Origin: an uncultured Dechloromonas sp.
Lineage (GTDB): Bacteria > Pseudomonadota > Gammaproteobacteria > Burkholderiales > Rhodocyclaceae
Direction: 5' to 3'
DNA: 64,000 bases
Assembly: GCF_945957265.1 (NCBI RefSeq)
Contig: NZ_CAMFKO010000001.1
Location: forward strand, 1-64,000
The notes beneath the pieces were generated by a model. It saw only the letters and a program-made list of their open reading frames with translations, was not told the origin of the DNA and ran no database searches. The position numbers and the translations under genes are program-made. Position 1 is the stretch's first letter; each line of letters starts with the position of its first letter. Below are positions 1 through 57,900 of this stretch, in pieces.

Positions 1-260
1 ATTTACTTGAGTGCCGCCAGCCGTGTTCACGGGGCGGTATTTCAGCAGCCTGTTAGGGGTCTAAGTCAGACTGGGTTCACAGCCGCGAAATCACAGCTTT
101 CGCCCGTCTCAATGGGCATTGCTGTGATGCGTTAGGGCATGCCCCTAAGCCAACACTATGAGAAATCATGGGGTGCCAAGTGAGCTATACCTCTCTATTG
201 CATCACTTCAAAACCCATACATTCAACTTCAATAAATAACTGAAATTTCTCAGCGAAAAA
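1..260. other. Left-edge intergenic region with nested hairpins
   Basis: No coding frame is supported here. The stretch holds two inverted repeats. The first is a nested stem, ATCACAGC at 90-97 with GCTGTGAT at 121-128, enclosing GCCC (102-105) with GGGC (114-117). The second is the near-palindrome TTAGGGCATGCCCCTAA at 132-148. It lies directly upstream of the integrase, so it may hold the integrase promoter or an element end. No copy of the tRNA-Pro 3' end is present, so I cannot call it an attachment site. Confidence 0.4.
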
Positions 261-1511
261 ATGTTCCCTGTAACCTACGAATTTTCGGAGATTGCGCACC
301 AATTAAACATTGTCATGGCAGAACCGGGCGTTAATCGAAACGCCGGGACCTGTTTAATTGACGCCATCACCGACCTAGATGCCACCAAGGAATACCTTGC
401 TCGTTTCAGAAATAAAACAAAAACTTATAGGTCCTACGAAAAGGAAATATCGCGATTTCTGATTTGGTGTACATGTTGCCGACAAGTCGCTCTCTCGGGT
501 GTTCTCAAGAACGACTGCGAAGCGTACAAAGACTTTCTTGCCTCGATACCGCCAAGCTGGATTGGCCATCCGGTAAAACGTGGTTCACCTAAATGGCGAC
601 CATTTGCTGGCCAACTATCACCAGACTCTCAAAAATATGCCGTCCAAACATTACGCCATTTTTTTCAATGGCTTGTTGACGCTCGCTATTTACACGGCAA
701 TCCGTGGAATATGGTGCTTGACCCGAATACTGAACAATCGGATGAGCCTCTAATGGTCGAAAAGGCTATTCCGTCTGAGCTCTGGGAAAAACTCGTCAAG
801 CGCGATGGAATTCTTCACAAGATATGTCACTCAGACTTAAAGCTCGCTGCCGGCCAAATTGTCCGTCCACGAAGCACCTTAGCAAAACCAATACAGTATC
901 GGATAGCGAGAGCAGCTATTTTGTTAATGGGCTTTGCTGGACTTAGGCGAGAAGAGGCATGCGGTGCGTCAAGAACACACCTGAAACCCGTGATTGAAAC
1001 TCACGGGGAACTTTGGGAGCTTCGAGTTTTAGGGAAACGTAGCAAATGGCGTACCGTTTACCTACCGAGCATGGTGATTGAGGCCTTGAAATCACACTGG
1101 GAAGATAGAGGCTTGGATTTTTTTGACGTGCCAAATCACCCTCTACTCTCCCCCGTCGTTGTACCCAATACGCCGGCTGCAGTTGAAAAACATCTGATTG
1201 AAAACGGCTCGGCGCACAATCTAGCACAACGGCCATTTACCCCAGATGGACTATATCAGGTTGTCAAAGCGGCCCTTCACCGCATGGCATCCGACAAGAA
1301 CCTTGACCTGAGCCAAGCGGAGAGAGAACTGCTGCGTTTGGCGGCACCGCATGCGCTCCGACACACTTTCGCTACTCAGGCGGCAGCACTCGGCATGCCA
1401 ATCGACGTTTTGCAACGTCTCTTAGGACACGTTTCACAAGCGACCACATCCCTATACGTAAAGGCTGAACGCTCAAGAAGCATTCAGGAGGTTCAGAAAA
1501 TATATGCCTGA
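261..1511 (+). CDS. Tyrosine-type site-specific recombinase (integrase)
   Basis: A 416-residue tyrosine recombinase that would cut and rejoin DNA during integration or excision of a mobile element. The catalytic set is visible: Arg229 in GFAGLRREE, a probable Lys in LGKRSKWR near 259, His364-x-x-Arg367 in HALRHTFAT, His390 in RLLGH and the nucleophile Tyr399 in TTSLYVKAE. The N-terminal half (about 35-150) is the core-binding SAM-like domain, including a FFQWLVDARYLHGNPW segment typical of the family. Length is normal and the frame intact, so the enzyme may be active. Codon use is more AT-rich than in the core genes to the right. It is the left-most gene of the island that ends at tRNA-Pro. 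Whether it serves that tRNA site cannot be told from this window. Confidence 0.93.
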   Translation: MFPVTYEFSEIAHQLNIVMAEPGVNRNAGTCLIDAITDLDATKEYLARFRNKTKTYRSYEKEISRFLIWCTCCRQVALSGVLKNDCEAYKDFLASIPPSWIGHPVKRGSPKWRPFAGQLSPDSQKYAVQTLRHFFQWLVDARYLHGNPWNMVLDPNTEQSDEPLMVEKAIPSELWEKLVKRDGILHKICHSDLKLAAGQIVRPRSTLAKPIQYRIARAAILLMGFAGLRREEACGASRTHLKPVIETHGELWELRVLGKRSKWRTVYLPSMVIEALKSHWEDRGLDFFDVPNHPLLSPVVVPNTPAAVEKHLIENGSAHNLAQRPFTPDGLYQVVKAALHRMASDKNLDLSQAERELLRLAAPHALRHTFATQAAALGMPIDVLQRLLGHVSQATTSLYVKAERSRSIQEVQKIYA

Positions 1512-1679
1512 TAGCGATAAGTTTCCCAACCCGCGTTTATTCCAATTAAATTAACTCTGATAATAGCAGTTATTAGGTTAAACATGTATTTGTCATTTTC
1601 CGGAAAGTATGTGACGCAACAAGCTATTAACTGATTGAGGCAGCATTCCTAATAGAAAGCTTCAGCAACACTGAAAATA

Positions 1680-1708
1680 AACACCCCCGCATGGCGGGGG
1701 TGTTGAGA
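1680..1708. terminator. Hairpin between convergent integrase and XRE gene
   Basis: A strong stem, CACCCCCGC-ATG-GCGGGGGTG, lies between two convergent genes. It is about 170 bp beyond the integrase stop and just after the XRE gene stop on the minus strand. The flanking A/T tracts are short, so termination strength is uncertain. Confidence 0.6.
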
Positions 1709-1712
1709 GACG

Positions 1713-2213
1713 CTAGTTAGACCTCGGTTGCGTTTTGAGTGAGCCAAGCAGCGATTCCGTCATCCAAGGCCAGCGCTTTTTTCCTGTGATGTAGTGGCGT
1801 CCTGAAACTTGGCCAAAAAGGACGGCTACAAGGTGCTGGACCGGCACAGGCATCGCCAGAAGGTCATTCCAGTCAACAGCCAATTCCAGCGCTTCTGGCG
1901 AATTTGCTAGGTCGCGCATCGCCACAGCGAGTTCATCCTGAAAGCTGACCGTAGGCTCGACAAAGTCTTCATGCCTGAGCTTTCCGGTCAGCAAAAAGCA
2001 AATGACCGCCGGCAACTCGAGAACTTTCGCAGCCGCCCGAACAACCTCGTCGCTTGCCACTGAAAAACGCTTGTCCCCAACAAGCAGTTGCGACATGTAG
2101 CTTGTGCTAATGCCTAGCATCCCTGCCAACGTCGAAACCGCCACGCCCTCTACATCTCTTCGCACCGCCAGCATAGTGGCGAGCGCATCCCTATTGCTCT
2201 TTTCACATTTCAT
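1713..2213 (-). CDS. XRE-family DNA-binding regulator (hypothetical)
   Basis: About 166 residues. Residues 15-60 read like a Cro/CI helix-turn-helix (VSTLAGMLGISTSYMSQLLVG), followed by an alpha-helical tail with no recognised domain. The start at 2213 is chosen over an upstream ATG because AAGAGGTCAAG sits just before it as a good Shine-Dalgarno sequence. A gene of this type in an integrase/endonuclease island is most likely a local repressor, but its targets are not visible. DNA binding is well supported; the role is inference. Confidence 0.75.
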   Translation of the reverse strand: MKCEKSNRDALATMLAVRRDVEGVAVSTLAGMLGISTSYMSQLLVGDKRFSVASDEVVRAAAKVLELPAVICFLLTGKLRHEDFVEPTVSFQDELAVAMRDLANSPEALELAVDWNDLLAMPVPVQHLVAVLFGQVSGRHYITGKKRWPWMTESLLGSLKTQPRSN

Positions 2214-2393
2214 CTTGACCTCTTGAGTGCGGGCACATGCCCACAGTCGTATAGCCAAGCTTCACAAACAGCTCGCACGCCCTATGCCACTGGCAGCGAA
2301 AGCCATTCACCACCGGCGAAAAAGTTTCCGCACTAATAGAGCGAATTTAAATTCCAGGAGTTATCAACTGCTTCTCGCAACGAGATTGCTCAT

Positions 2394-2801
2394 ATGAGAC
2401 ATCGAAACCTGTTTCGCGGCCTTGTCTACGATGGCGACTGGCATACCCGATTGTGTAGCGCCTTGGCGCTTGCCAGGAAAGGTGTCGAGTCGGCTGAAAT
2501 AATGGAAGCAATTGTCCGACTTGAAGACCTCCTGGCCCAGCGAGATGAATGTGTTCATAAAGTTTCTGTTAGCCTGGATGTTCCCGACGAGCTCGACCCC
2601 GCACACACCCACCGACAGCTCTTCGAAGAGTTAGCTGCAGAACAAGGCGAACTAAAATTGCTTGTGCCAAGAACGCTGGAACTGACCATTACATTGCGAG
2701 GCAGTCGGTCTCGCGCAGAAGCGGAAGCCCGAGGCATGCTTAGGCGCGCCCTGACGCGGCATCTCGCCGGCATTGCCTTCAAACGGAAATTGGGCGACTA
2801 G
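2394..2801 (+). CDS. Hypothetical protein, island gene
   Basis: A 135-residue frame I do not recognise. It is charged, mostly alpha-helical in character, has no signal peptide and is rich in Arg and Leu towards the C-terminus. It runs divergently from the XRE regulator and convergently into the HNH endonuclease, overlapping its last four bases. This tight end-to-end packing is the main reason to believe it over the shorter opposite-strand frame at 2364-2612. The ribosome-binding site before the ATG is weak, so the start is uncertain. Confidence 0.5.
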   Translation: MRHRNLFRGLVYDGDWHTRLCSALALARKGVESAEIMEAIVRLEDLLAQRDECVHKVSVSLDVPDELDPAHTHRQLFEELAAEQGELKLLVPRTLELTITLRGSRSRAEAEARGMLRRALTRHLAGIAFKRKLGD

Positions 2802-3964
2802 GTCTTACGGAAGCAGTTTTCTCGATGCCACGCCAGATAGGGCAAATGGTTTTCAGCCAAACCCAAAACCTGCTCTGAGCCAGATATTCCAGCCATTGTG
2901 CGTTGATGTATGGTGAGCGCCGTCGAGACTTGGATTTTCCCCGAGTCGTAGAAAGTAACCCACCCGCCATCAAAGAGAGCATCTAAGTGAGGCGCCAACA
3001 ATAAACCATTGAAGACATCCAGTCGTTCACTGTCGGTATCGCACTTCGCCCACGGCTTGATGTGCGAGGCACGTAGCAGTTCGACCACATCCAGACCTGT
3101 GATGGCGCATCGCCCTCCCCAATACCCTATGAGCTCTCGGCGGAAGATGTCCTGCCCCACTCGCTGAGTAACCAGGCGCTGAACCTCCGTTGAATCCGGA
3201 ACTTGTTTAGCCCTACTCTGGAACTCCTTCAGAGGATTACCACTGACCGCTTGAGCAATTTCTGCTCCCCGCTGAAGCGCACGGTGCAATTCATGGTAGC
3301 CGGCAATACCATTCAATCGAACAGCCCACGGCAAAGGATTAGATACAATCGGAACCCCTAGGTCGCCAGAGAGCCGCCGGCCAACAGATTCGATTGACAC
3401 GCCAATATCATAACCATCGGTACGCGACTGAACCCCAAGCTGAACTGGAGATGAAGTCGATTTGAATACCAGCCAGGCATCACGTAACTCAGGCGTCAGG
3501 TCGAAACCTGCGTCAATAGCCGCCTTCTCGATACGAGTGCGCTCAAGGGACGTCGAAGTGCTGGCCTTCGCGGTCAAGGGCGATGCGTACCAACGAAGAA
3601 GTGCCTGCAATGTTTCTCCGTCAGACACTACACACGAGGTCTGATTCGGGGCTGCAAGCCTTGAGTCTTGGTTACTTTTGATTCGAGAACCTTCGTACGG
3701 TGAGTCTGAAGGCTCAATGCCCGCGATTACCGGTAATTCACATTTTTCAAGAATGACCCGGGTTTGCTGGGCCGGATGGAATCCGGTAGTCACATCAGTG
3801 TTGCCCAGCACAATCGCAAACTGTCGCCCCAAGGTGCCGCCGACAGCAAAAAGCTGCGCCTTGGTACGAGAAACATCGTCGAACCGATGAATGCCCAGTT
3901 CCTTGGCCAACGGGCCATCAACTACCTGTAAAGCCTCTCTGGCTGGGTACTTTGATACGGTCAT
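2798..3964 (-). CDS. HNH endonuclease (HNH_2 type), restriction-like
   Basis: A 388-residue protein whose last third carries an HNH nuclease of the HNH_2 type. Visible elements are YWGGRCAITGL, LLRASHIKPW (the central His) and VFNGLLLAPHLDALFDGGW (the Asn/His end). Such nucleases are common as the cutting domain of restriction enzymes, with a variable N-terminal target-recognition region. Here the first ~270 residues match no fold I know and could do that job. No methyltransferase is nearby, so it may be a modification-dependent (type IV-like) or solitary nuclease. GGAAAG precedes the ATG, and the gene starts only 19 bp after the chimeric helicase/ATPase frame on the same strand, so the two were probably one operon. 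Confidence 0.85.
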   Translation of the reverse strand: MTVSKYPAREALQVVDGPLAKELGIHRFDDVSRTKAQLFAVGGTLGRQFAIVLGNTDVTTGFHPAQQTRVILEKCELPVIAGIEPSDSPYEGSRIKSNQDSRLAAPNQTSCVVSDGETLQALLRWYASPLTAKASTSTSLERTRIEKAAIDAGFDLTPELRDAWLVFKSTSSPVQLGVQSRTDGYDIGVSIESVGRRLSGDLGVPIVSNPLPWAVRLNGIAGYHELHRALQRGAEIAQAVSGNPLKEFQSRAKQVPDSTEVQRLVTQRVGQDIFRRELIGYWGGRCAITGLDVVELLRASHIKPWAKCDTDSERLDVFNGLLLAPHLDALFDGGWVTFYDSGKIQVSTALTIHQRTMAGISGSEQVLGLAENHLPYLAWHRENCFRKT

Positions 3965-3983
3965 TCGTTACTTTCCATGGCTG

Positions 3984-5627
3984 CTAAAAACCCGGCAGGC
4001 GGTTGTCGAGGCGCTTCTTGAACAGGGAATCCTGCTCATCGCCGGGTTTCAGTTCCAGAACCAAGTAAGGGGCTTGGCACAGAGATGCGGGCGGCGGTGA
4101 CGTTGTAGTTACGATGTATTGAAATGGAACTGAATTTCCCTGCTGCAGTTGGCCTTCAGCCTCGCGGACAAGGGACAAGTAATCTCGATAGAGTCGCTCG
4201 CTCATGTCGGCCTCTCGGGGACAATCGTGAACGATGAGTCCGGGGTGAAGGCTGAGCTCAGATACGGCTGAGTCCAGCAATGTCGTGATGTCGCCGAGTA
4301 GAACCTCCAGAACTTGGTAGGCCTCACCACCAACACCCAGTTCAAAAGGTCGAAGGTCGGACTCCGGATTGAATACCCCAAAGCCATCGGCGCCGAGCAT
4401 CTTGTTTGCTACTTGCTTGGTCAATGCTTTAAGGGTTTCACTGCGGGATGAGGTTTCCCGCCAGGTACTGGGTCGCTTGAACTCCTTACCTAGCTTGGAG
4501 CGAGAACTGCCAGAGACCAGATATTCGACGTTGCGACGGTCCTCATCACGAGGTTTACCAGTCGTGATGAACCAGTTGGCCGCCACCGGGTTCTCATCTT
4601 CCGTCAGGCCCCAGGGCTCTCGCAGGTTGGCAAAGCTGGACGTCTTCAGCTTGTCGAGTTCTGTACGGTCGAGATACCGCGAAGCCAGGCAGAGACCTTG
4701 GCGCATGGCATCGAAGAGCTTTACCAGCAGGCGCTTGCGGACTACGGGGGATGCTGCTTGGAGTGCCAAGGGCGCATCGGACCATTCGGATGCATCCCCG
4801 ACCAAGTCATCCAGGTCCTGGTACTCGATGTGCACCAGCCCCAACTGCTCAAGGTTCGGATTGTTGAAGCGCCAGCCACGCCTCAGGTCGAAGTACACGC
4901 GGTACCCAAGAATCGCCCGCATGATGTCCTGAACTTGCCGGCGAGCATTGCCCTTGATGTCAGGTTCTTGCATGTACTCTGCCCGAACCCCAGGGTCGTC
5001 ACGGTCAAAGCCTAGGGACCTAAACACAGCGTCTGACACTTCGGACTCGGTTAGGCTTCCACCGGCCTTCTGAACGGCTGCCAACAGAGCGGCGCGCTGG
5101 AGCATGACCTGGAGAAAGTCGTTGAAGTGGCCAACCTGAAGCGCGGCATCCTGCCGGTTGTCAGTGAAACCCAAGACCTTCTTGGCCACCTCTTGCAGCT
5201 GGTCGTCTTCTTCGTAGAGGTAGCGCAGGGCCGACAGAGTCAGCATGGTGGTGGCAGAGCTTCGCCCTTCACCAGACAAGCCCGTCAGGCGGAGCGACTC
5301 CTTGCCAGCAAACGGATGAACAACGCCACAGCGGAGGCAGAATCCGAAACTCCCTGGAATGAACCATCCCGGCGTGCCATCGGCCGTATGGTACCCCTCA
5401 GTATTCACGCGTACATGAACCGGCTGACGTTTCTTGTAGGTGGACTTGAGTTTCAGGTCGCCATCGACCTTCTGCTCCAGCCAGGTTTCGGGGTAAGCGC
5501 GCATATATACGCATAAGAACACCGTGAAATAGAAGCTGTTTTCGTTATTACAAAACCAGTGCCCGATGTCGGCGTCAAGTAAAGGCGATGCAGGCGTCGA
5601 GCAAAAACGATGCGGGCGCCAAGTCAA
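3984..5627 (-). pseudogene. Chimeric remnant: helicase middle fused to tail of SMC-like ATPase
   Basis: An open frame of 547 codons that reads as two unrelated gene pieces joined in frame. Residues ~44-380 look like the C-terminal half of a large SF2 DEAD/DEAH helicase of the kind found in phage-defence loci, with KVLGFTDNRQDAALQVGHFND at ~148-168 and LVSGSSRSKLGKEFK at ~375. No Walker A or DEAD motif is present, so the N-terminal motor half is missing. Residues ~430-547 look like the end of an SMC/RecN-type ATPase: a signature-like FELGVGGEAYQVLEVLL, a Walker B-like GLIVHDCPREADMSE and PFQYIVTTTSPPP. A deletion between two neighbouring genes would explain this. The first ~38 codons are translated from 22-bp repeats and are not native protein. 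Function is very likely lost; the domain assignment is from memory of the families. Confidence 0.7.
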
Positions 5628-5651
5628 TGCGATGTGGACGTCAAGTTGTCA
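5564..5651. repeat. Four tandem 22-bp direct repeats
   Basis: Four copies in exact 22-bp register: 5564-5585, 5586-5607, 5608-5629 and 5630-5651. Each begins CGATG and carries a GGCGTCAAG-like core, with about 5-8 mismatches between copies. They cover the apparent 5' end of the helicase remnant. Multiple ~20-bp repeats are typical of the ends of IS21-family insertion sequences and of iterons. Here a decayed IS end seems the better fit, but no transposase is present in the window. Confidence 0.8.
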
Positions 5652-5786
5652 GAGTCGGCCATAAAAATTTAATGCCAACTATTCTCAGGTAGTTTTTCCG
5701 AAAAACTGCTTTCAGCGCTCCTGGCCCGGAAATCATGGTGGTTGATTGTGCGTATACACACTCACCCAGACCACCGTATATCCATC

Positions 5787-5990
5787 ATGACCAAGAAAAC
5801 AAGCTCGCGGCACTCACCTTCCACCCTTCAACTTTCTGTCCGAGTCCCTCGTACGCTTCATCAGCAGTTTTACGAAGAGTGTGCCCTTCGAGGGATAACT
5901 GGTTCCGACATGTTACGGAGCATGATGGCCCAGTTTGTCGAGCTAGCTGGGCAGAATGCCACCAAGGCGAAGGAGGAGCAGCATGGTTAA
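5787..5990 (+). CDS. Small ribbon-helix-helix-like DNA-binding protein
   Basis: 67 residues from the ATG at 5787; a TTG at 5742 would add 15. Residues 12-50 (LQLSVRVPRTLHQQFYEEC then GITGSDMLRSMMAQFV) fit a short beta strand followed by two helices, as in CopG/Arc-type regulators. Such proteins commonly regulate plasmid or island genes or act as antitoxins. It overlaps a downstream ATG at 5983, preceded by AAGGAGGAG, so translation of the next gene is probably coupled. Fold assignment is by pattern only. Confidence 0.7.
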   Translation: MTKKTSSRHSPSTLQLSVRVPRTLHQQFYEECALRGITGSDMLRSMMAQFVELAGQNATKAKEEQHG

Positions 5991-6001
5991 GCTTTGCCCA
6001 G

Positions 6002-6451
6002 ATGCGGATGCGGTACAACCGATGGAACCTCGAAATACCGAAGCTTCTCTCCGTCAGCTTTGAAGATGGTGAGCCTTCAGGGGATTTCAAAGGGAGCGAT
6101 ATCCTACTGCTGAAGGTTTCCGTTTCACTAGCCGAGCTGTTTGGTCCTGGCGAATGGACCGCAATCGACAAAAGAGCCGTGGGCTATGATGGCCTGCAGG
6201 GCTGGCTTTCGAACTTCTACGCGGGACACGCACGAGGCAGGTGGGTAGATGTCGCTTGGCTACAGAAATTAAGCGGCTACAAATCCCACATTCGGAACTT
6301 CAGGGCGGGCCTAGTCACAGCGCTAGACAAGCTCAAGTCGGAGCAAGTACCGGAAGGATGCAGAGTAAAGGATTACCACTTCTCCAAAGACGGAGAAAAA
6401 TTGCTAGTTCTTCGACCTGGCTGGACCAAGCCATCGGAAGCCTCAGTGTGA
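6002..6451 (+). CDS. Hypothetical protein, possibly winged-helix
   Basis: 149 residues from ATG 6002. Not recognised with confidence. The text WLQKLSGYKSHIRNFRAGLV followed by a charged segment and DYHFSKDGEKLLVLRP suggests a helix-turn-helix with a beta wing, as in some plasmid replication initiators. It follows the ribbon-helix-helix gene. The strong ribosome-binding site AAGGAGGAG actually serves an ATG at 5983 in another frame, which stops after 26 codons. Either the real start is 6002 with a weak site, or a frameshift has separated the start from the body. Confidence 0.6.
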   Translation: MRMRYNRWNLEIPKLLSVSFEDGEPSGDFKGSDILLLKVSVSLAELFGPGEWTAIDKRAVGYDGLQGWLSNFYAGHARGRWVDVAWLQKLSGYKSHIRNFRAGLVTALDKLKSEQVPEGCRVKDYHFSKDGEKLLVLRPGWTKPSEASV

Positions 6452-6635
6452 CAACCTCTCATAAAGAAACTTTGGTATTTCAACCGATAGGCAAATAATA
6501 AATACCCATTTATTTTGAATTCTGACAGGTATTTATTCGCCGTTTTATATAAGAAAAACCGAATTATTGATTCAAGTAAAACATTTTCGATTTATATACC
6601 CAAGCACAAGAAAGCATATTTCGAACGTTTCACTA

Positions 6636-6922
6636 TTGGCCCCCAGATTTTCTACCGTGAAGTTTTTGGGGGCCAATTGGAGTATCAAACCCGGGGAAAA
6701 GCACCTGACCATGTATTCCCGTTCCATCAAGGGTTCATCATCGCAATTTCAGGAAGCCCTCTACAGAGTAAAGCCTGATAGCGCCGCTGTCCCAGCACCA
6801 GCAACGAAAACAACCTTGTTTGGAGGTGGTTTTTGTTAGTCGATTTTCTGTGAATCGACGCGGGACAAGGACTTGGAAGTTGGGGCCAAGCAAATGCCTG
6901 CTGGCCCCCAAACTGGCCCCCA
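6636..6922. repeat. Five TGGCCCCCA-type repeats beside tRNA-Pro, candidate integrase arm sites
   Basis: TTGGCCCCCA at 6636-6645 and its reverse complement at 6667-6676 form one inverted pair. A variant, TTGGGGCCAA, is at 6880-6889. Direct copies of CTGGCCCCCA are at 6901-6910 and 6913-6922. Clusters of this kind lie next to attachment sites of elements integrated at tRNA 3' ends, where the integrase binds them as arm sites. That reading is inference from position. Confidence 0.55.
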
Positions 6923-6947
6923 AAACGCGAAATAAAGAAACATAAAG

Positions 6948-6973
6948 CAAAAAGGCCAATCCGAAGATTGGCC
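6948..6973 (-). terminator. Rho-independent terminator of tRNA-Pro
   Basis: Read on the minus strand, the stem GGCCAATC with a TTCG loop and GATTGGCC is followed by a run of five T. It lies about 29 bp past the tRNA-Pro 3' end. Confidence 0.85.
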
Positions 6974-7001
6974 TAACTGCTTGTTTTTACCGCTTTATTT
7001 C

Positions 7002-7079
<78 letters not shown>

Positions 7080-7115
7080 CACGAGCCCTGCATTATATCT
7101 GAACTGCGGCCATTT

Positions 7116-38640: not shown

Positions 38641-41223
<2,583 letters not shown>

Positions 41224-41376
41224 GAACAATCTCCCATAGCGGAATTTCCAATACCGGACAGATAGGGACAGCCCCCGGCAATTTCAAGCCGCCGACGACA
41301 ATCCGGCGCTTATTTGATATTTCGGGATTCTTTGTGACTTGGCTTGTGCTAAATTGGCAACATAAAAGTATTATTT

Positions 41377-41392
41377 TTGGCACTTATGCCAA
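41377..41392. promoter_or_regulatory. 16-bp palindrome before chemoreceptor gene
   Basis: TTGGCA-CTTA-TGCCAA is a perfect dyad 30 bp before the ATG. It could be an operator. A further TTGGCA is at 41354-41359. No matching regulator is identified. Confidence 0.4.
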
Positions 41393-41421
41393 CTCACTTC
41401 ACCATCCAAGAGGAGAGCGAC

Positions 41422-43056
41422 ATGTCGAGCAAGGGACTGACGCTACGCACCAAACTGCTCGCCATGACGGCAGTTACCATTGCCGCCCTGGGCGTGCTGT
41501 TCTTTGTGCTGCTGGTCAACGAGAAGAGCCAGATGCTCGAAGATCGACAAGCAAAAGTACGAAATCTGGTCGAAGTGGCCCATGCAACGGCCGCACACTT
41601 CGAAAAATCGGCGCGGGACGGCCAGATATCGATGGATGAAGCCAAGCAGCGCGCGGCCGCGGCAATCCGCAACATGCGCTACGACAAGGTCGAGTATTTC
41701 TGGATCAACGACCTGCAGGACCTGATGGTCATGCATCCGATCAAGCCCGAGCTCGAGGGCAAAAAGCTGGACCAGCTGAAAGACAAGAACGGCAAGTTGC
41801 TGTTCCTCGAGTTCAACAAGGTGGTCAACGCCAAAGGCGCCGGCTTCGTCGATTACCTGTGGCCGAAGCCGGGCTCCGACGAGGGGGTTCCCAAGATATC
41901 CTATGTCATGGGCTTCGCTCCCTGGGGCTGGGTCATCGGTTCCGGCATCTATGTTGACGACGTGGACGCCAAGTTCCGCGCCGATGCTGTCAAGCTGGGC
42001 ATCTGGGGCTTGCTGATCGGCGGCTTCATCGCCGTCTCGCTGCTCATCCTCTCGCGCAACATCATCCGCACGCTGGGCGGCGACCCGTCGCTTGCCTCGG
42101 CCATCACGCAGCGCATCGCCAGCGGCGACCTGGCGACCCCGGTCGACTGCGATGCCAACGACAAAACCAGCTTGCTGGCCAACATCCGGACCATGCAGGA
42201 AACCCTGCGCAACATGATCGCCAGTATCGTCAGCAATGCCGAACAGGTTGCCAGCGCCGCCGATCAGCTGCTCCACGCCTCCGAAGCCGTTGCCGACCGC
42301 GCCAGCCAGCAGAGCGATGCGGCTTCGTCGATGGCCGCCTCGGTGGAGGAAATGGCCGTGAGCATCGACCAGGTCAGGGAAAATGCCGCGGAAGCCCATG
42401 GCATCTCGCAAACGGCGGGTTCGCTGTCGCAGGAGGGCGCCTCCGTCATCCACCATGCCGCCAGCGAAATGCGCAAGATTTCCGAAGCGGTCCAGTCCTC
42501 GTCGCAGATCGTCGAGGAGCTGGGGCGGCAATCAGACCAGATCACATCCATCGTCAATACCATCAAGGAAATTGCCGACCAGACCAACCTGCTCGCCCTC
42601 AATGCCGCCATCGAAGCGGCGCGCGCCGGCGAACAGGGGCGCGGCTTCGCCGTCGTCGCCGACGAGGTGCGCAAGCTGGCCGAGCGCACCAGCCTGTCGA
42701 CCACCGAGATCGCCGGCATGGTTTCCAAGATACAGACCGGCACGCGCAACGCGGTCGACAGCATGCAGGCCGGGGTGGAACAAGTGACCAACGGCGTCGC
42801 GCTGGCCAACCAGGCCGGGGAATCGATCAACCAGATCCGCGACGGTGCCTCGCGCGTCACCGACGTGGTGAACGGCATTTCCGAGTCGATTGCCGAACAG
42901 AGCATGGCCGGCAACGAAATCGCCCAGAAGCTGGAAACCATCGCCCAGATGTCCGAGGAAAGCGCCCTCGCCGTCCGCCAGACCTCCGATGCCGCGCGCC
43001 ACCTGCAATCGCTGTCCGCATCGCTCCACCAGACGGTCGCCCGCTTCCGGACCTGA
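41422..43056 (+). CDS. Methyl-accepting chemotaxis protein with sCache sensor
   Basis: 544 residues from MSSKGLTLR, with AAGAGGAGAG before it. A first membrane helix (~10-30) is followed by a periplasmic sCache_2-type domain (~35-185; [32 protein letters not shown]). A second helix (~195-215), a HAMP linker and a long coiled coil come next. The tip that contacts CheA/CheW reads [20 protein letters not shown]. sCache_2 domains often bind small carboxylates; the ligand here is unknown. Confidence 0.94.
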
Positions 43057-43088
43057 ACGCGGGCAGGGTCCCGGCTTGTCCCGGGGCC

Positions 43089-43964
43089 CTACTCGATGAA
43101 GCGCTCGGCGCGCTTCATGACTTGCCGAACGCGATCGAAATCCGCATCGCTGGCAGCAACCAGCCCATCGCGACTGAGCAGCTCGAGTTCCGCCGCCGAC
43201 AAACCCAGCAAGGCCCGAACCAGGATATCGGCCGCCGCCGTGGGGAAATCGGCCCTCGCCACCCAGGCATGCGCCGGGCTCTTCATGGTGTGGATCAGGC
43301 GGAACTTCTTCTCCACCCCGTATTTGTTGAAGGTCACTTCATTCGAGGCGCCGGCATCGAAACCGCCTTCACCGACTCCCTTGAAGACCTTGTCGTGGCG
43401 CTGCAGGTAGCGAAAGCCGGCCAGGTCGCTGGCATGTATCCCCACCTCGAGAAGGGCGGCCTGCGGGTAATAGCGGCCGGTGGTCGAGTTGGGCGAGCCG
43501 AAGGCGAAGGTCTTTCCCCGCAGATCCCTGAGCGTGCGAACGTCGGAGCTGGCCGGCACGAAAATATAGCCGGTCAGCAAACGCGAGCCATTCTGCGTCT
43601 CCATGGCCAGCAACCTCAAGGACGGCTTCTGCTCCTTGGCCAGGACGTAATTCACCGGCCCCATGCGCGCGAAATCGACCCTCCCGGCGACAAGCTCCTG
43701 AATCGCCTCTTCATAGCTCTGGAGAATGCGGATCTCGATATCCACCCGGTAACCGGCCGCCGAGAGGCGCTTTTCGAGGCCGGCCCGTATGGGTTTGATC
43801 TTTTCCAGCTCCTCGCTGGGCAACTCGGAAGGATAGGTGCCAAGGACCAGCCGCCGCGGCATCGTCGACGCCGAATCCGAGGCCAGCGCGAGGCTGTGCG
43901 CCACGACCAGGAAAAGCACGGCCGCACGGCCAAGCACGGAGCGCCACCACATCGCCAGGCCCAT
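43089..43964 (-). CDS. PhnD-like periplasmic binding protein
   Basis: 291 residues from MGLAMWW, giving a good signal peptide (VLGRAAVLFLVVAHSLALAS). The rest fits the phosphate/phosphite/phosphonate-binding PhnD family: VLGTYPSELPSEELEKIKPI, VAGRVDFARMGPVNYVLA, LRGKTFAFGSPNSTTGRYYP. No ABC permease or ATPase is adjacent. Such orphans often feed signalling proteins. It starts 11 bp after moaE, on the same strand, so the two may share a transcript. Confidence 0.83.
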   Translation of the reverse strand: MGLAMWWRSVLGRAAVLFLVVAHSLALASDSASTMPRRLVLGTYPSELPSEELEKIKPIRAGLEKRLSAAGYRVDIEIRILQSYEEAIQELVAGRVDFARMGPVNYVLAKEQKPSLRLLAMETQNGSRLLTGYIFVPASSDVRTLRDLRGKTFAFGSPNSTTGRYYPQAALLEVGIHASDLAGFRYLQRHDKVFKGVGEGGFDAGASNEVTFNKYGVEKKFRLIHTMKSPAHAWVARADFPTAAADILVRALLGLSAAELELLSRDGLVAASDADFDRVRQVMKRAERFIE

Positions 43965-43975
43965 CGTGCCGCGCC

Positions 43976-44428
43976 TCAGGTATTCCAGCGCTCGGCGGCG
44001 CTGTCGTCCGCTTCGCGGGCGTCCACCCAGCGCCCGCCATCCGGGGTCGCTTCCTTCTTCCAGAACGGCGCGCGCGTCTTCAGGTAATCCATGACGAACT
44101 CGCAGGCGGCGAAGGCCTCGCCGCGATGCGCGCTGGTCACCGCGACCAGCACGATCTGGTCGCACGGCTTCAACGGCCCGACGCGATGGATGACCAGCAC
44201 ATCGTAGAGTTCCCAGCGGCCCCTGGCTTCGGCGACGATTTCCTCGAGCGCCTTCTCGGTCATGCCGGGATAATGCTCCAGCGTCATTTCCGACACCGAC
44301 GCGCCGTCGTTGAGGTCGCGCACCAGGCCGAGAAAACTGGCCAGCGCCCCGACCCGGGCGTCGCCGGCCCGCAGCGCGGCCAGTTCCGCACCAACATCGA
44401 AATCCGCTTCCTGCACCCGAACCGTCAT
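43976..44428 (-). CDS. moaE: Molybdopterin synthase catalytic subunit MoaE
   Basis: 150 residues from MTVRVQEADF, with GGAGGGCGGG before it. MoaE with thiocarboxylated MoaD adds the dithiolene sulfurs of molybdopterin. Family blocks are SFLGLVRDLNDG, LEHYPGMTEKALEEI, IHRVGPLKPCDQIVLVAVTS and the active-site DYLKTRAPFWKKE. moaD is not adjacent. Confidence 0.95.
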   Translation of the reverse strand: MTVRVQEADFDVGAELAALRAGDARVGALASFLGLVRDLNDGASVSEMTLEHYPGMTEKALEEIVAEARGRWELYDVLVIHRVGPLKPCDQIVLVAVTSAHRGEAFAACEFVMDYLKTRAPFWKKEATPDGGRWVDAREADDSAAERWNT

Positions 44429-44481
44429 CCCGCCCTCCACCTGTTTGTCTGGTTTGCCAACAACTAGCAACTAAGACTGCT

Positions 44482-46068
<1,587 letters not shown>

Positions 46069-46121
46069 GGCGGACGGTTGAATGCGGAAAACCGCGCATT
46101 ATACCCCGTCCGGCAAGCACC

Positions 46122-46850
46122 TCAGCCCGGCAGCGCGGCCCGGTACAGCGCCCGGCTGGTGTAGGCCAGCCACGGCAGGGTCAGCAACAGTAGCGGCAGG
46201 GCCAGAATGCTGCCGATCACCGTCGCCGACAGCAGCACGGCCCACACCATGGTCGTCGGGAAATTGCCGAAGACGACGCGGACGCTGGTCACCACCGCCT
46301 CGACCAGCCCGGCCCGGCGCTCGCACAGCAGCGGCACGGCAAAGGCCGATATGGCGAAGAGCAGGAAGGCGACCACCGCTCCGGAGACCGAAGACCACAG
46401 CACGAAACGCGAGACATTGGCCGAGGCCGGCAGCAACTCGCCCAGCCAGACCGGCACGTCGCCGATCATGTAGGCGTAGAGAATCGCCGCATCGGTCACG
46501 AAGATCATGAACAGCAGGCCGCAAACCAGCGCCAGCGCCCAGATGGCGCGGCTGGCGCCGGAAAATCCGGCCGCCACCGACGACCAGGCCGCGCCCTTTC
46601 CCGCCTGGTGATCGCGGGCGATGCCGAAGAAGCCGGCGAGGATGGCCGGCCCGACCAGCATGAAGGCGCCCGCCGCCGCGATGACGAAGGGCGTCCAGCC
46701 GCGGGCCAGCAGACCGCCGATGATGCCGGCGCCGGCGAGCACGAAAATCGCGGTGTAGGCGATGCTGGTTCCCCGCGTCTCGCCGGCCAGTCGCCAACCT
46801 TCGGCCAGGGCATCGAACAGGGTGTCGAGATTGAGCGGTTGGGCGGTCAT
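46122..46850 (-). CDS. DUF2189 family membrane protein
   Basis: 242 residues with about six membrane helices, starting near 28 (AYTAIFVLAGAGIIGGLLA). GPAILAGFFGIARDHQAGKG and the closing YTSRALYRA are typical of DUF2189. GGAGACGCC precedes the ATG. Function unknown. Confidence 0.85.
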   Translation of the reverse strand: MTAQPLNLDTLFDALAEGWRLAGETRGTSIAYTAIFVLAGAGIIGGLLARGWTPFVIAAAGAFMLVGPAILAGFFGIARDHQAGKGAAWSSVAAGFSGASRAIWALALVCGLLFMIFVTDAAILYAYMIGDVPVWLGELLPASANVSRFVLWSSVSGAVVAFLLFAISAFAVPLLCERRAGLVEAVVTSVRVVFGNFPTTMVWAVLLSATVIGSILALPLLLLTLPWLAYTSRALYRAALPG

Positions 46851-46949
46851 GGCGTCTCCGGTGTCGTCGCGCCCAACGGGCGCAATCCCGTACGAGACTA
46901 GCGGAGCCGGCCGCCCGGCTCTCTAATGCAGATCAAATTTGCCGGCCGC

Positions 46950-47795
46950 TCAGACGGCGACCAGCGTTTGCCGGCCATACCATTCGTCGCCGGCCGCCAC
47001 GACCACCGGCTGCTCGGCCGCGGCTTCGACGCACAGCATATGCCGCCAGCCGTCGGCCGGCATGTCGGCCATCGCCGCGCATTTATCGACCCACGGGTTC
47101 CATACCACCACGTCCGGGAAACCCTGGCTCTGCGTCGCCAGGCTGAGGTTGCCGGCCTGCAGCAATTGCGGCCGCTTCACCCGGCGATAGACGCGATCCA
47201 TCTCGGCGTCGACGGCGATGTGGGTGCCGCTGTCGCGAATCACCGCGTCGCCGTTGGCGGCATCGCGATAGTCATGGCCGTACAGGCCTTCCAGCGTCAC
47301 GTCCTCGACCTGGACCACGCGCAGGTAGGTATGCAGGGCGCCGGTGAAGGCGAATTCGGCGCCGCCGGTATTGGTCACGCTCAACTCGAGGTCGAGGCGG
47401 TCGGCCTCGAGCATCACCGTCAATTCGAGGCGGAAGGCGTGCGGCCACAGGGCGCGGGTCGCCTCGTCATCGGCCAGCTCCAGCGTGGCCAGCGCATAGT
47501 CGTCGCCGCTGCGCTGCGCACCGGCCTGCCAGATGCGGGTCCGCACGAAGCCGTGCTTGGGCAGGTCGCCCAGGCCGGAAAACTGCGGCCAGCAGACCGG
47601 AATGCCGCCCCGGATGGCGACGCTGCCGTCGAAAACGGCCTTGTCGGACAGGAACAGGCGCTCGCGACCGTCCGGCGTGATCCAGGAGAGCACCTGGGCG
47701 CCCAGTTTGCTGACCACGGCGCTGGCGCCGCGCGGCCCTTGCAGACGCAGGGCCGGGATGCCGTGGAATTCGATTTCTTCAATGCAGGGTTTCAT
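46950..47795 (-). CDS. D-hexose-6-phosphate mutarotase (aldose 1-epimerase family)
   Basis: 281 residues from MKPCIEEIEFHGIP; a start 12 codons upstream is possible. It is a galactose-mutarotase-like beta sandwich of the YeaD type. Motifs: FLSDKAVFDGSVAIRGGIPV, CWPQFSGLGDLPKHGFVR, and the base-like residues in TGALHTYLRV and VVWNPWVDKC. It likely interconverts alpha and beta forms of glucose 6-phosphate. The start overlaps the end of the DUF3301 gene by 17 bp, so they form an operon. Confidence 0.88.
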   Translation of the reverse strand: MKPCIEEIEFHGIPALRLQGPRGASAVVSKLGAQVLSWITPDGRERLFLSDKAVFDGSVAIRGGIPVCWPQFSGLGDLPKHGFVRTRIWQAGAQRSGDDYALATLELADDEATRALWPHAFRLELTVMLEADRLDLELSVTNTGGAEFAFTGALHTYLRVVQVEDVTLEGLYGHDYRDAANGDAVIRDSGTHIAVDAEMDRVYRRVKRPQLLQAGNLSLATQSQGFPDVVVWNPWVDKCAAMADMPADGWRHMLCVEAAAEQPVVVAAGDEWYGRQTLVAV

Positions 47796-48120
47796 GTGTA
47801 TTCGGAACGACGTAGAGGTGGGGGCGGACATGCAGCATGTCGACGTGATGGCCGGTCATGGTGACGCTGCCAAAACAGCGATTATTGCCCGTATCGCTGT
47901 ATTCGAAGGCAAAAATACGCTGCAGCCGCAACACGCCCTCGTCATCCCGCTGCCATTTCACGGAACGTCCGACCACGGTTTCGTCGAGAAACTGCAAGCC
48001 CTCCTCCCGGCAGGCATTGCGTGCCGCCAGAACCCCGATCTCGCGCGCCTTCAGGCTGTCGAGCCAAAACCATATGGCGCCGGCGAGCGCACACAGAAGC
48101 AACAATTCATACCAGTTCAT
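47779..48120 (-). CDS. DUF3301 family protein
   Basis: 113 residues from MNWYELLLL. One N-terminal membrane helix (ELLLLCALAGAIWFWLDSLK) is followed by a small soluble domain (ARNACREEGLQFLDETVVGR, then LQRIFAFEYSDTG), which is the DUF3301 pattern. Function unknown. It overlaps the mutarotase gene and is divergent from the gene at 48209. Confidence 0.85.
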   Translation of the reverse strand: MNWYELLLLCALAGAIWFWLDSLKAREIGVLAARNACREEGLQFLDETVVGRSVKWQRDDEGVLRLQRIFAFEYSDTGNNRCFGSVTMTGHHVDMLHVRPHLYVVPNTHETLH

Positions 48121-48162
48121 GGCATTAGTATACGAAAAGCGGAAATTCTCCACAGAAAATCG

Positions 48163-48178
48163 ATCAGATTTATCTGAT
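48163..48178. promoter_or_regulatory. Palindrome in divergent promoter region
   Basis: ATCAGA-TTTA-TCTGAT is a perfect 16-bp dyad in the 88-bp gap between the DUF3301 gene (minus) and the 48209 gene (plus). It is a candidate operator; the regulator is unknown. Confidence 0.4.
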
Positions 48179-48208
48179 AATTCGCACGTCGAATTTCATC
48201 CCCAGACC

Positions 48209-49738
48209 ATGGACTCCCCGCTGCAATTATTTCGCGAATTGCTCCCGTTCGGCCCGTCAAGCGCCGAACAGAAGAGCGTTGCGGCAGTCCGCGGCCTGCT
48301 GGATACCCTGATCGGCCTGTCGCCGCAGGAAACGGTGGCCAAACTGGCCTCCTCGGTCCTGCCGACGGTGAATCGCCAGCCCAACCTCCACATGCGCTTC
48401 AAGCTGCTCGAGGACATCCGGCACGAAACCGAGCAGGCGCTGCCGACGCTCGAGCAGGAAATCAGCCAGGCCGTCCTGCCGCTGCCGCTCGTCACGACGA
48501 CCGCCGCGCTCCATGTCGACAACCTGCTCAAGGGCCTGTCGCTGGCCTACGCCAGCATCGCGCGGGGCATCAACAAGGGGCAGCTCGAAAGCGGCATGAG
48601 CCATCTCTTCCACCGCAGCGTCCAGCGCGCGATGGCCATGGTTTCCCGTCGCCAGCTGCTGGCCTACCGGGCCTACGCCGCGCCCTCCGCGTCGTCCTGG
48701 CAGACCCTGCACGATCTCTACCAGATGGTGCGCGGGCCGCTCTCCATGCCGCTGAACGGCGAAACGGCGCCCATCGAGCACGAATACCTCGGCGCGCTGC
48801 TGTTCGCCTACCTGGAGCCGAGCAAGCTGCCGCGCTCCGAACTCGAGATGATCAACATCTGCTCGCGCCAGCTGGCGGCCTATGCCGGCATCGGCGACGC
48901 GCTGGCCGACCCCGCCGGCGTCAAGCATCCCGACTCCTGCTTCATGGTGCGCCCCGACGAAGGCAATCCCGGCCACCCGCTGTCGCGCCTACCGGCATCC
49001 ACCTCCACCTTCGGCAGCCTGCTGGTCGATTGCTCGCAGGTGCTGGCGGCGCTCGACCGCAACATCACCCGCCGCCCCGGCAAAACCGTCGAGCCGGACC
49101 TCAACGCGCCGCCCGCCGTGCTGCAGTCGCTGCGCGTGGCGATTGGCGGCAAGAGCTCGCGACGCTTCAGCCGGACCCACTTCCGCCCGCGCGGCGACCT
49201 GGTTTCCGGATTCAATTCCGTCGTCACCTTTCTCGACGGCAATGCCTTTTCGCGACGCTCGGTCGATGCGGCCCATCGTTACAACGGGCGCGAGTTCACC
49301 TCCAGCGAATGGGCGCTGGTCGACGAAAGCCCGGACGGATTCCGCCTCCGCTTCATCAAGGGCGAAAAGAAAACGCTCGGGGCCGGCGACATCGTCGCCC
49401 TGCAGCCCCGCGAATCGAGCAAGATCCACGTCTGCTTCGTCCGCCGCATCTCGTCGTCGCAGGTCCGCCTGGAAATCGGGCTCCAGCTCATGTCGCCGCA
49501 GGTCAGCGTGGTCGATGTCACCATCGAGGACGTGGCGGAGGATTGCCGGGCCATCTTCCTGCACAGCCTGCCGGCTTACGGCAAGTTTTCCGGCCTGATC
49601 ATCCCGCCGGGTAGCTATCGTTCCGGCCAGAAGGTCCTGGTCAAGCTGCCCGGACGCTCCCTGCTCCGCCAGCTCGGCACCTGCATGGAAGCCAACGATG
49701 GCCTGGCCTTCTTCGCCCTGGAGCAGCTCCCCGACTAG
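48209..49738 (+). CDS. Conserved hypothetical protein, possible PilZ-like C-terminus
   Basis: 509 residues, soluble. The first ~330 residues are alpha-helical with no domain I recognise. The C-terminal ~170 residues look like a beta barrel: EWALVDESPDGFRLRF, LGAGDIVALQPRES, VCFVRRISSSQVRLEIGLQL. This pattern of an Asn/Asp-Glu-Ser turn followed by VGD- and VRW-like blocks recalls divergent PilZ domains in Rhodocyclales. A clear RxxxR-D/NxSxxG c-di-GMP motif is not obvious, so binding is unproven. Confidence 0.65.
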   Translation: MDSPLQLFRELLPFGPSSAEQKSVAAVRGLLDTLIGLSPQETVAKLASSVLPTVNRQPNLHMRFKLLEDIRHETEQALPTLEQEISQAVLPLPLVTTTAALHVDNLLKGLSLAYASIARGINKGQLESGMSHLFHRSVQRAMAMVSRRQLLAYRAYAAPSASSWQTLHDLYQMVRGPLSMPLNGETAPIEHEYLGALLFAYLEPSKLPRSELEMINICSRQLAAYAGIGDALADPAGVKHPDSCFMVRPDEGNPGHPLSRLPASTSTFGSLLVDCSQVLAALDRNITRRPGKTVEPDLNAPPAVLQSLRVAIGGKSSRRFSRTHFRPRGDLVSGFNSVVTFLDGNAFSRRSVDAAHRYNGREFTSSEWALVDESPDGFRLRFIKGEKKTLGAGDIVALQPRESSKIHVCFVRRISSSQVRLEIGLQLMSPQVSVVDVTIEDVAEDCRAIFLHSLPAYGKFSGLIIPPGSYRSGQKVLVKLPGRSLLRQLGTCMEANDGLAFFALEQLPD

Positions 49739-49847
49739 GGAGCGCTCGCCGCCCGCCCCGGCGCTTGCCTGCCGCAGCGACTACGCGGCACAATCCCGGC
49801 CTTGTCCGGCACCGGACATCCCCCACCCGAAACAGGCCCCCTTCCCG

Positions 49848-50693
49848 ATGCTCAGCTACCGCCACGCCTTTCACGCCGGCAACCACGCCGACGTACTGAA
49901 ACACCTCATCCTCGTCCAGATCGCTGAATACATGGGCGAAAAGCCGGCACCGTTCTGGATCGTCGACACCCACGCGGGGGCCGGGCGCTATTCGCTGGAG
50001 TCGCCGCACGCCACCAAACTGGGCGAATACAAGGACGGCATCGGCCGCCTGTGGGACGCCAAGGGCCTGCCGCCGGCGGTCACCGACTATGTCGATCTCG
50101 TCCGCCAACTGAATCCCGACGACAAGCTGAAGCACTATCCCGGCTCGCCGTGGCTGGCCCGCCAGCTGTTGCGCGACAGCGACCGGCTGCGCGTCTTCGA
50201 AATGCACAGCACCGACATCAAGCTGCTGCAGGAATGCTTCAAGGGCAGCGGCCGCGCCGTCACGGTTTCCGAAGGCGACGGCTTCGCCGGGCTGAAGGCG
50301 CTGCTGCCGCCCCCGCCGCGGCGCGCCCTGGTGCTGATCGACCCCTCCTACGAAACCCGGAACGACTACGCCGCCGTGGTCAAGGCCTTGCAGGAAGCCC
50401 TGAAACGCTTCCCGACCGGCACCTATGCGGTGTGGTACCCGATGCTCGCCAAGCTCGAATCCCGCCAGCTGCCGGAACGCCTGAAAGGCCTGGGTGCCAA
50501 GAACTGGCTGCACGCCACGCTGGAAGTAAAGGCGCCGGCCAAGGACGGTTTCGGCATGAACGGCAGCGGCATGTTCATCATCAATCCGCCATGGACGCTG
50601 GAAAGGAAGCTGCACGAGACCCTGCCCCGGGTAAGCGAACTGCTGGCCCAGGGCGACGGTGCGAAATACGTGCTGGAGAGCGAATCAACCTAG
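49848..50693 (+). CDS. rlmJ: 23S rRNA (adenine-2030-N6)-methyltransferase RlmJ
   Basis: 281 residues, starting MLSYRHAFHAGNHADVLKH, a strong RlmJ mark. SAM-binding text is WIVDTHAGAGRYSL (~37). The catalytic motif, usually DPPY, reads LIDPSYETRNDY (~163); this Pro-to-Ser change is common enough that activity is still expected. FIINPPWTLE is also typical. It methylates A2030 of 23S rRNA. Confidence 0.94.
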   Translation: MLSYRHAFHAGNHADVLKHLILVQIAEYMGEKPAPFWIVDTHAGAGRYSLESPHATKLGEYKDGIGRLWDAKGLPPAVTDYVDLVRQLNPDDKLKHYPGSPWLARQLLRDSDRLRVFEMHSTDIKLLQECFKGSGRAVTVSEGDGFAGLKALLPPPPRRALVLIDPSYETRNDYAAVVKALQEALKRFPTGTYAVWYPMLAKLESRQLPERLKGLGAKNWLHATLEVKAPAKDGFGMNGSGMFIINPPWTLERKLHETLPRVSELLAQGDGAKYVLESEST

Positions 50694-50772
50694 TTGTTAG
50701 TTGCTGGTCTTTAGCAAATACGAGGACGCCGTGGCGCCCTCCCCAACTTCGCCAACATCTGGCAACTGACAG

Positions 50773-51129
50773 CTAAAGAAGCTCGGTGTACTTGGCCCGC
50801 GAACCGTAGGCCTTGGCGACCGGGTACTTGTCTTCGTTCTTGCGCAGCTTGGCGTAGGCCGCCGCGGCGAGGTCGATGCCGGCCTTGTCGGCGACCAGCA
50901 GCAGGAGCAGCAGGATGTCGGCGCATTCGTCGCGCAGGGCCTCGGCCGACCGGGCATCGTCCGGCATCGCGTCGATCTCGGCATCGCTCTTCCATTGCGT
51001 CAGTTCGAGCAGTTCGGCCGCCTCGAGATTGAGCGACACGATCAGGTTGCGCAGCGAATGGAACTGGCGCCAGTCGCGCGCATCGCGAAAGGCCTGTATG
51101 GCGGCGGTGAGTGCGGCAAGTTCGCTCAT
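50773..51129 (-). CDS. MazG-like nucleotide pyrophosphohydrolase
   Basis: 118 residues, all-alpha. It has the MazG metal-binding pattern: SLNLEAAELLELTQW (ExxE) and ALRDECADILLLLLLVAD (ExxD). It is close to small dCTP/NTP pyrophosphatases of the RS21-C6 type that clear odd nucleotides. Convergent with rlmJ and divergent from the dicarboxylate symporter. Confidence 0.88.
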   Translation of the reverse strand: MSELAALTAAIQAFRDARDWRQFHSLRNLIVSLNLEAAELLELTQWKSDAEIDAMPDDARSAEALRDECADILLLLLLVADKAGIDLAAAAYAKLRKNEDKYPVAKAYGSRAKYTELL

Positions 51130-51197
51130 GTCCCGGGTCCTCGATTCGAAGCGGCGATGATGCCAGTCGCCGGCCCTGCCGACAACGTCGGTGGTCA

Positions 51198-51342
51198 GCT
51201 TCGCAATTTACGAAACATGAAAGCTGGTCTTTGCCCCCTGGCGTTGTTGCTCATCCTCGCGATAGCTTCGGCTATCGCTGCGGTTCGCGCCTAGCCAGGA
51301 ACGCAAATCCGGCGCCTTCATTTGTTCCGCCAATTACGAAGC
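51198..51342. repeat. 145-bp imperfect inverted repeat
   Basis: The left arm starting GCTTCGCAATTTACGAAACA (51198) and the reverse complement of the right arm, starting GCTTCGTAATTGGCGGAACA (from 51342), agree at many positions along ~70 bp. The centre is a perfect hairpin, CGATAGC-TTCG-GCTATCG at 51260-51277. It lies in the leader of the symporter gene. It resembles a REP- or MITE-like mobile repeat. Confidence 0.6.
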
Positions 51343-51384
51343 AGACCACTAAAATGTCGGCATTTCCGCCCCCCGCAACGCTCC

Positions 51385-52626: not shown

Positions 52627-52629
52627 CGC

Positions 52630-53064: not shown

Positions 53065-53167
53065 ATCGACTCCTTGAAAATGCCCCGCCGGCAGGACTCA
53101 GCGTAACATGTGCGGGTTTGCCGCGGTCGCCCGATGCCGACCGCGACCGATAGCCAAAGGAGAAACC

Positions 53168-53689: not shown

Positions 53690-53694
53690 GGCGC

Positions 53695-54363: not shown

Positions 54364-54375
54364 GCGGGCAGTAAA

Positions 54376-54404
54376 AAGGCCACCGGCGTATCGACGGTGG
54401 CCTT
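54376..54404 (-). terminator. Terminator of fliW
   Basis: AAGGCCACCG and CGGTGGCCTT form a 10-bp stem. On the minus strand it is followed by a short T run. It sits between convergent genes and may act for both. Confidence 0.82.
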
Positions 54405-54428
54405 CCGGCGCAAAGGGAAGCGCGCGGG

Positions 54429-57400: not shown

Positions 57401-57552
57401 CGCCGGAACCCGGGAGCACTCCGCGACGCGCGAACGAGCGATGCGCACCGGTCGCGCCCGGTTGAACAAATGCCGACCGGGCATGTCGACTGCTTACCGC
57501 TGGCACGATCTTCTGTCGCTTTTTCGCTGCGCCAACTCGCGAGGAGAACCCC

Positions 57553-57891: not shown

Positions 57892-57900
57892 TCGATTGCC

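Follow-up and report, generated by a model that had tools for sequence, protein, structure and literature searches.

The window analysed here, a stretch of 64,000 nucleotides from an uncultured Dechloromonas sp., carries near its left end a minus-strand open frame of 547 codons (3984..5627) that is listed with a TTG start and contains no internal stop codons. Within it, codons 45-391 (4455..5495, minus strand) correspond to amino acids 519-865 of an ARMADA-I-type YprA/DruE-like helicase, and codons 393-547 together with the stop codon (3984..4451, minus strand) correspond to the C-terminal lobe of an SMC/RecN-like ATPase, including its signature and a Walker-B-like motif. The change-over between the two parent alignments, which we treat as the 3′ deletion junction, lies at codons 391-393 (4449..4457, minus strand), and the first 44 codons (5496..5627, minus strand) match neither parent gene. 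Located 19 bp after the stop codon of this chimeric frame is the last gene of the operon, an intact HNH_2 nuclease gene (2798..3964, minus strand; PF13391, E = 6e-12).

Both parents of the chimera are found as genes of a single operon in one strain of the same GTDB genus, Azonexus hydrophilus DSM 23864 (G068). Residues 45-391 align without gaps to amino acids 519-865 of its 1771-aa helicase (87% identity over 347 aa), with homology beginning at codon 45 (window position 5495), and residues 390-546 align, also without gaps, to amino acids 502-658 of its 659-aa ATPase (76% over 157 aa). The helicase piece is 77% identical to the helicase of a second genome of the genus (G024) and 84-87% identical to those of loci L016-L020. 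In the G024 helicase the DEAD and Helicase_C domains recognized by Pfam span amino acids 94-273 and 962-1044, respectively, and the piece lacks both because it falls between them. The ATPase part retains the GGEA signature and an HDCPRE Walker-B-like motif, and the Walker A motif (AGHGVGKTS, amino acids 62-70 of a relative) is missing from it. Pfam and NCBIfam models gave no match to the chimera at E ≤ 1 and PADLOC gave DruE alone (E = 0.063), and since the domain libraries are nearly silent, the parent assignment rests on the relatives. An earlier sequence-only reading had described the frame as a piece of an SF2 helicase, with neither Walker A nor DEAD box, joined to the tail of an SMC/RecN-like ATPase, and had proposed that each half be searched separately; the two halves indeed match two different full-length genes, and that description needs refinement for residues 1-44, which belong to neither.

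The gene order in intact relatives is helicase, SNF2 helicase, methylase, SMC-like ATPase and, beyond any inserts, HNH nuclease. In A. hydrophilus the operon genes all lie on one strand, with the helicase at 39871-45186, the SNF2 helicase at 45186-48032, the methylase at 48007-52437, the ATPase at 52447-54426, a GmrSD_N protein and a HEPN/RES protein between ATPase and HNH, and the HNH nuclease at 57532-58677. Helicase codon 866 and ATPase codon 502 are 11,484 bases apart in this strain, and elsewhere the two halves are likewise found on one contig and strand, separated by 11,529 bases in G296, 11,871 in G359 and 12,849 in Zoogloea dura (L020, L042). Across 54 loci, the helicase half was matched in 14, the ATPase half in 40 and both in none, with a few alignments overrunning the junction by at most 45 residues. 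In 36 of the 40 ATPase-side loci the ATPase is preceded by SNF2 and methylase genes, and in 31 of these 36 stretches a helicase piece comes before them; the remaining four contigs start about 1 kb or less from the ATPase. A deletion running from one gene into another of the same operon, leaving the HNH gene as the surviving last member, had been proposed from the window alone, and the intact relatives support it. The accompanying assumption that the helicase and ATPase genes sit side by side does not hold, as two large genes intervene and at least 11.5 kb has been lost.

A further locus of the same genus, in G024 (L004 1-4541, L013), deserves mention in its own right. By eye, its methylase is cut short (1255 aa) next to a transposase-like frame. 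Full-length helicase and SNF2 frames are present, and an HNH relative (53%) is located beyond; no ATPase relative was found in this genome when the C-terminal piece was searched against 76 genus genomes. It is perhaps another damaged copy.

The two-part arrangement itself appears to be confined to the window's genome (G000). When the whole chimera was searched against 60 relatives, three matched and both halves were covered only in G000, and a search of 399 order-level genomes (at most three candidates scored among the matches listed) gave 16 matching genomes at E ≤ 1e-20, of which again only G000 covered both halves. Alignments in the other 15, among the matches listed, end by residue 422 or start at residue 373 or later. 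The C-terminal piece found, besides G000, only G068 and G074 among the 76 genus genomes, in frames of 662 and 673 aa. Viral contigs held no relative of the chimera and no exact copy of the junction, neither was found in phage records, and although 71 plasmid records match the chimera, none aligns over 80% or more of the query at any one place, with the alignments ending by residue 416 in the best 20 of the 71. It might be argued that the chimera belongs to a genuine two-domain family, part helicase and part SMC, in which no deletion is involved. In its favor are the open frame and a gapped alignment (37%) of the G074 ATPase to chimera residues 304-539, which crosses the junction, but we take the latter to be a probable chance extension because the G074 frame is that of an ordinary ATPase of 664 aa. 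The two parts sit in separate frames in the 399-genome search, of 1673-1831 aa for the helicase and 661-663 aa for the ATPase, and the same architecture in many genomes, the finding that the sequence-only reading had named as speaking against a deletion, was sought and seen neither in the 54 loci nor in the other 15 genomes with matches among the 399. We therefore consider such a family hardly credible.

A misassembly that joined two pieces of one operon is another potential explanation, given that the genome is a draft of 71 contigs (91.5% complete) and that the window starts at a contig end. The window locus lacks complete copies of the helicase, SNF2 helicase and methylase genes, retaining only helicase amino acids 519-865, and in the case of a misjoin the missing genes might be expected on other contigs, where they were not found. 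A full-length helicase (84% identical) searched against the window's genome recovered the window fragment and no other helicase part, the SNF2 query gave only distant matches (28 and 24% identity), and the methylase query, run without a positive control, gave nothing. Moreover, no repeat of at least 14 nt spans 4449-4457 among the matches listed, and the order, strand and frame of both pieces are those of the operon. An artefact of this kind is accordingly improbable, and we return to a deletion as the origin of the junction, where the parents, as judged through relatives, would have shared at most a few bases.

A single deletion accounts for the 3′ junction as originally proposed, and there is an additional break on the 5′ side that it does not cover. 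The listed TTG is not credible as a native gene start, judging from the sequence, because helicase homology starts only at codon 45 and the frame extends into four direct repeats with an exact 22-bp period (GATGNNGGCGTCAAGT-like; 5565..5652, plus strand) directly upstream of the helicase piece. An ATG is present within codons 1-44 (5502-5504), and no ribosome-binding site was seen there by eye. With up to two mismatches, the repeat pattern has five matches in the window, four of them at 5565-5652, and none of 100 shuffles reaches five. The repeats are candidates for iteron-like elements or for the end of an insertion element; an IS21-type end was considered and support for it was not found. 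Within the 76 genus genomes the pattern occurs in the window's genome only, its six matches among 97 loci are all copies of the window stretch, viral contigs gave no match, and plasmids gave three weak matches (E ≥ 0.9), with none for a longer stretch. Comparison of the two parent alignments with the operon of the relatives demonstrates both breaks, the identity of the two pieces and the integrity of the HNH gene at the level of sequence.

Between the remnant and tRNA-Pro the window also contains a 238-aa open frame (5735-6451, plus strand), which has no Pfam, PADLOC, NCBIfam or PHROG match, and 149 of its residues found no match in plasmids. A genus-wide DNA search with 5500-7000 returned mostly the stretch beside tRNA-Pro (~6940-6986) and not the putative mobile DNA. 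The region 1-7078, which starts at the contig end and comprises a tyrosine integrase (261-1511), an HTH-like regulator (1713-2258), the remnant of the ARMADA operon and tRNA-Pro (7002-7078), resembles the end of an integrated island; no attachment-site repeat for the 3′ end of tRNA-Pro was evident among the repeats of 1-7100. By eye, small HTH-like regulators whose sequences start alike are found close to the ARMADA locus both in the window (1713-2258, minus strand) and in A. hydrophilus (G068:C7:61478-61975).

The age of the event can be approached through the state of the frame. For the helicase part compared with A. hydrophilus, pN is 0.084 and pS is 0.78 (Nei-Gojobori), a ratio that was set mostly before the deletion, and selection after the deletion is not measurable because synonymous sites are near or at saturation relative to the relatives; relaxed selection on the fusion, evaluated by the same method, consequently gave no verdict. 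At helicase columns that are invariant in six other helicases, the window departs in 9 of 246 cases and A. hydrophilus in 5 of 242; L016 and L018-L020, a mutually closest group of four, depart in 1-3 of 238-240 and G024 in 29 of 266. In the ATPase part the window departs in 3 of 73 cases; three relatives show 0 of 70 and another three show 5-9 of 75-79, so that on these sequence counts no clear decay of the chimera is apparent. The ATPase part keeps all 34 columns that are invariant in 30 relatives and the window HNH keeps all 37 that are invariant in 15, both counts being based on complete frames chosen as a subset of the relatives. If the frame is neutral, the lack of stops caps later substitutions at ~79 in 503 codons (95%). 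That the frame is open had been taken to mean either a recent event or a product that is kept; zero stops, no gap and intact invariant columns point to a recent event, and the two possibilities are not separable on this basis.

A kept product would be a truncated, partly folding adaptor that controls or partners the HNH nuclease, perhaps through translational coupling. Consistent with this are the frame open across both parts, the intact HNH gene 19 bp downstream and a promoter-like site on the minus strand (6590-6563, ~0.9 kb upstream of the chimera), given which the chimera may be expressed. Such sites are, however, no commoner than chance (2 found versus 3.7 expected), an in-frame join is expected in one third of deletions, neither half contains a complete ATP-binding site, the native start region is gone, and the fusion occurs in a single genome when the 54 loci and the 399 order-level genomes are considered. 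Retention of the fusion for a function is therefore unlikely.

We propose that the chimera is very probably a deletion scar, that is, a non-functional remnant of a broken ARMADA Type I-like anti-phage operon. A deletion of ~11.5 kb, taking the size from the closest relative, would have fused helicase codon ~865 in frame with ATPase codon ~502, removing the 3′ part of the helicase gene, the whole of the SNF2 and methylase genes and most of the ATPase gene. At the second break, unrelated, perhaps mobile, DNA would have taken the place of helicase codons 1-518 and of all upstream sequence. With no repeat of note at the junction the deletion was presumably illegitimate, and the frame would be open by chance (1 in 3) and owing to the recency of the event. 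The product, if made at all, would lack a complete ATP-binding site and hence would have no role in defense, leaving the operon dead, and the leftover HNH gene may be unexpressed or may function by itself. Reading the chimera as a dead remnant is economical because the fusion occurs in one genome and lacks both a complete ATP-binding site and a native start. The chimera itself is of minor importance: it documents the decay of a defense operon by internal deletion and cautions that an open frame with homology to defense genes is not necessarily a gene.

The more useful by-product of this analysis is the association of an SMC-like ATPase family and an HNH nuclease with an ARMADA Type I core. The operon tail was surveyed in the 15 other genomes from the 399-genome search, using one helicase match each (a second helicase match in G361 was left out); 13 of these were matched by the helicase half only, and G296 and G359, which were matched by the ATPase half too, are probably already within the 54-locus set. 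Profiles built from those 54 loci (39 ATPases, 33 HNH) were applied with a cut of E = 1e-5, at which remote members can be missed. SNF2 and methylase genes are present in all 15 (one methylase is cut by the contig end), the SMC-like ATPase comes after the core in 5 of the 14 loci that could be read (the G361 contig stops within the methylase), and an HNH gene comes after it in 11 of 13 (G361 and G359 stop too early). HNH is missing from G034 and G275, whose helicases are the most divergent (34-35%), and the G275 locus ends ~3.7 kb after the methylase. On the ATPase side an HNH relative is located downstream in 34 of the 40 loci, within 200 bp of the ATPase in 12 of the 34, and one of the six contigs lacking it ends 664 bp after the ATPase. 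The window HNH is 51% identical to that of A. hydrophilus over 300 aa. Ten annotated plasmid regions, drawn from the best 20 of the 71 matching records, show the same kind of picture. By annotation, ATPase and HNH occur together in Mesorhizobium sp. AR02 and Agrobacterium deltaense, HNH with no ATPase in A. caldus and Sphingobium, an ATP-binding protein with HNH in Croceicoccus, and an AAA and McrC pair in Nocardioides; no HNH is annotated in Roseomonas and Nostoc, the helicase of M. huakuii has no adjoining other core genes, and the Hydrogenimonas region is cut by the record start.

The ATPase belongs to a conserved family of ~660 aa (L009 8448-10427 and relatives), with rows of its alignment (A3) 31-82% identical to the first. 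The parent family has an N-terminal Walker A and a C-terminal signature and Walker B, seen in the alignment as a nearly invariant AGHGVGKTS (62-70) and invariant GGEA (545-548) and HDCPREAD (579-586), and its relatives in Mesorhizobium and Agrobacterium are named 'chromosome segregation protein SMC' by NCBI. These motifs and the annotation of the relatives are what suggest an SMC/RecN-like ATPase; Pfam matched neither the G068 nor the G074 protein. Kinship to solved structures was also considered, but the eight PDB profile matches at E ≤ 0.1, among them one Smc fragment (E = 0.023), are mostly to long-helix or coiled-coil proteins and were rejected as evidence.

A tail of this type is not mentioned in the main text of the preprint that describes ARMADA, the disARM-related Antiviral Defense Array (PMC12458937, 2025), where 'SMC' does not appear and the one instance of 'HNH' is in a reference. 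ARMADA is also named in PMC13192584, where HNH, among the matches listed (12 of 15 places), is that of ZorE, and in PMC12904381, which states that it restricts by unknown mechanisms and where SMC refers to Wadjet and Lamassu; the relevant passages of these two papers do not describe an SMC-like ATPase or HNH tail. We tentatively suggest, as a possibility that falls somewhat short of even, that ARMADA Type I in Pseudomonadota comprises more than three genes and has a dedicated effector tail, usually HNH and often the SMC-like ATPase, that ATPase and HNH act as a sensor-nuclease pair of the Lamassu or Septu type, that other tails such as AAA-McrC are swapped in elsewhere, and that the window represents the loss of all but HNH. 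Since the experiments described in the relevant passages of PMC12458937 were on Type II, the tail survey provides a testable list of extra parts for Type I.

How do these operons compare with known systems? Druantia is suggested by DruE being the best PADLOC match of the G024 helicase (E = 2e-90). The SNF2 and methylase genes, by contrast, match DISARM- and Dpd-type models best. The PADLOC matches listed (up to 25 per list) for the neighbours scanned include no Dru partner genes, the partners being SNF2, methylase, ATPase and HNH. The ATPase family resembles Lamassu and other SMC-like defense ATPases in its Walker A, GGEA and HDCPRE motifs, and the G068 protein is a weak match to LmuB (E = 2e-9, residues 65-496, largely coiled coil), but the G074 ATPase has no PADLOC match and there is no LmuA or LmuC among the matches listed for the G068 neighbours scanned. 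As regards ARMADA Type I, the C-terminus of the G024 helicase contains DUF559 (PF04480, amino acids 1698-1748, E = 7e-6), which may be akin to a Vsr nuclease. A Vsr nuclease at the C-terminus of the Type I helicase is named in PMC12458937, which also places the ARMADA YprA proteins nearest to Druantia. The core order of YprA-like helicase, BrxHII-like helicase and PglX-like methylase is found in the G068, G074 and G024 operons; the relatives carry, in this order, a YprA/DruE-like helicase, a DpdE/DrmD/BrxHII-like SNF2 protein and a DrmMI-like methylase (in G068, PADLOC matches the SNF2 protein to DpdE, 6e-213, and to DrmD, and the methylase to DrmMI). In Nostoc, by annotation, SNF2 and methylase precede the helicase, just as PMC12458937 states for cyanobacteria. 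The differences are that the window copy holds only the middle piece of the helicase and that the relatives often have a tail (SMC-like ATPase and/or HNH, GmrSD, RES) absent from the main text of that preprint. By analogy with DISARM and ARMADA Type II, the intact relatives presumably restrict unmodified phage DNA while the methylase marks self, and their gene content and order, on which the assignment is based, fit ARMADA Type I.
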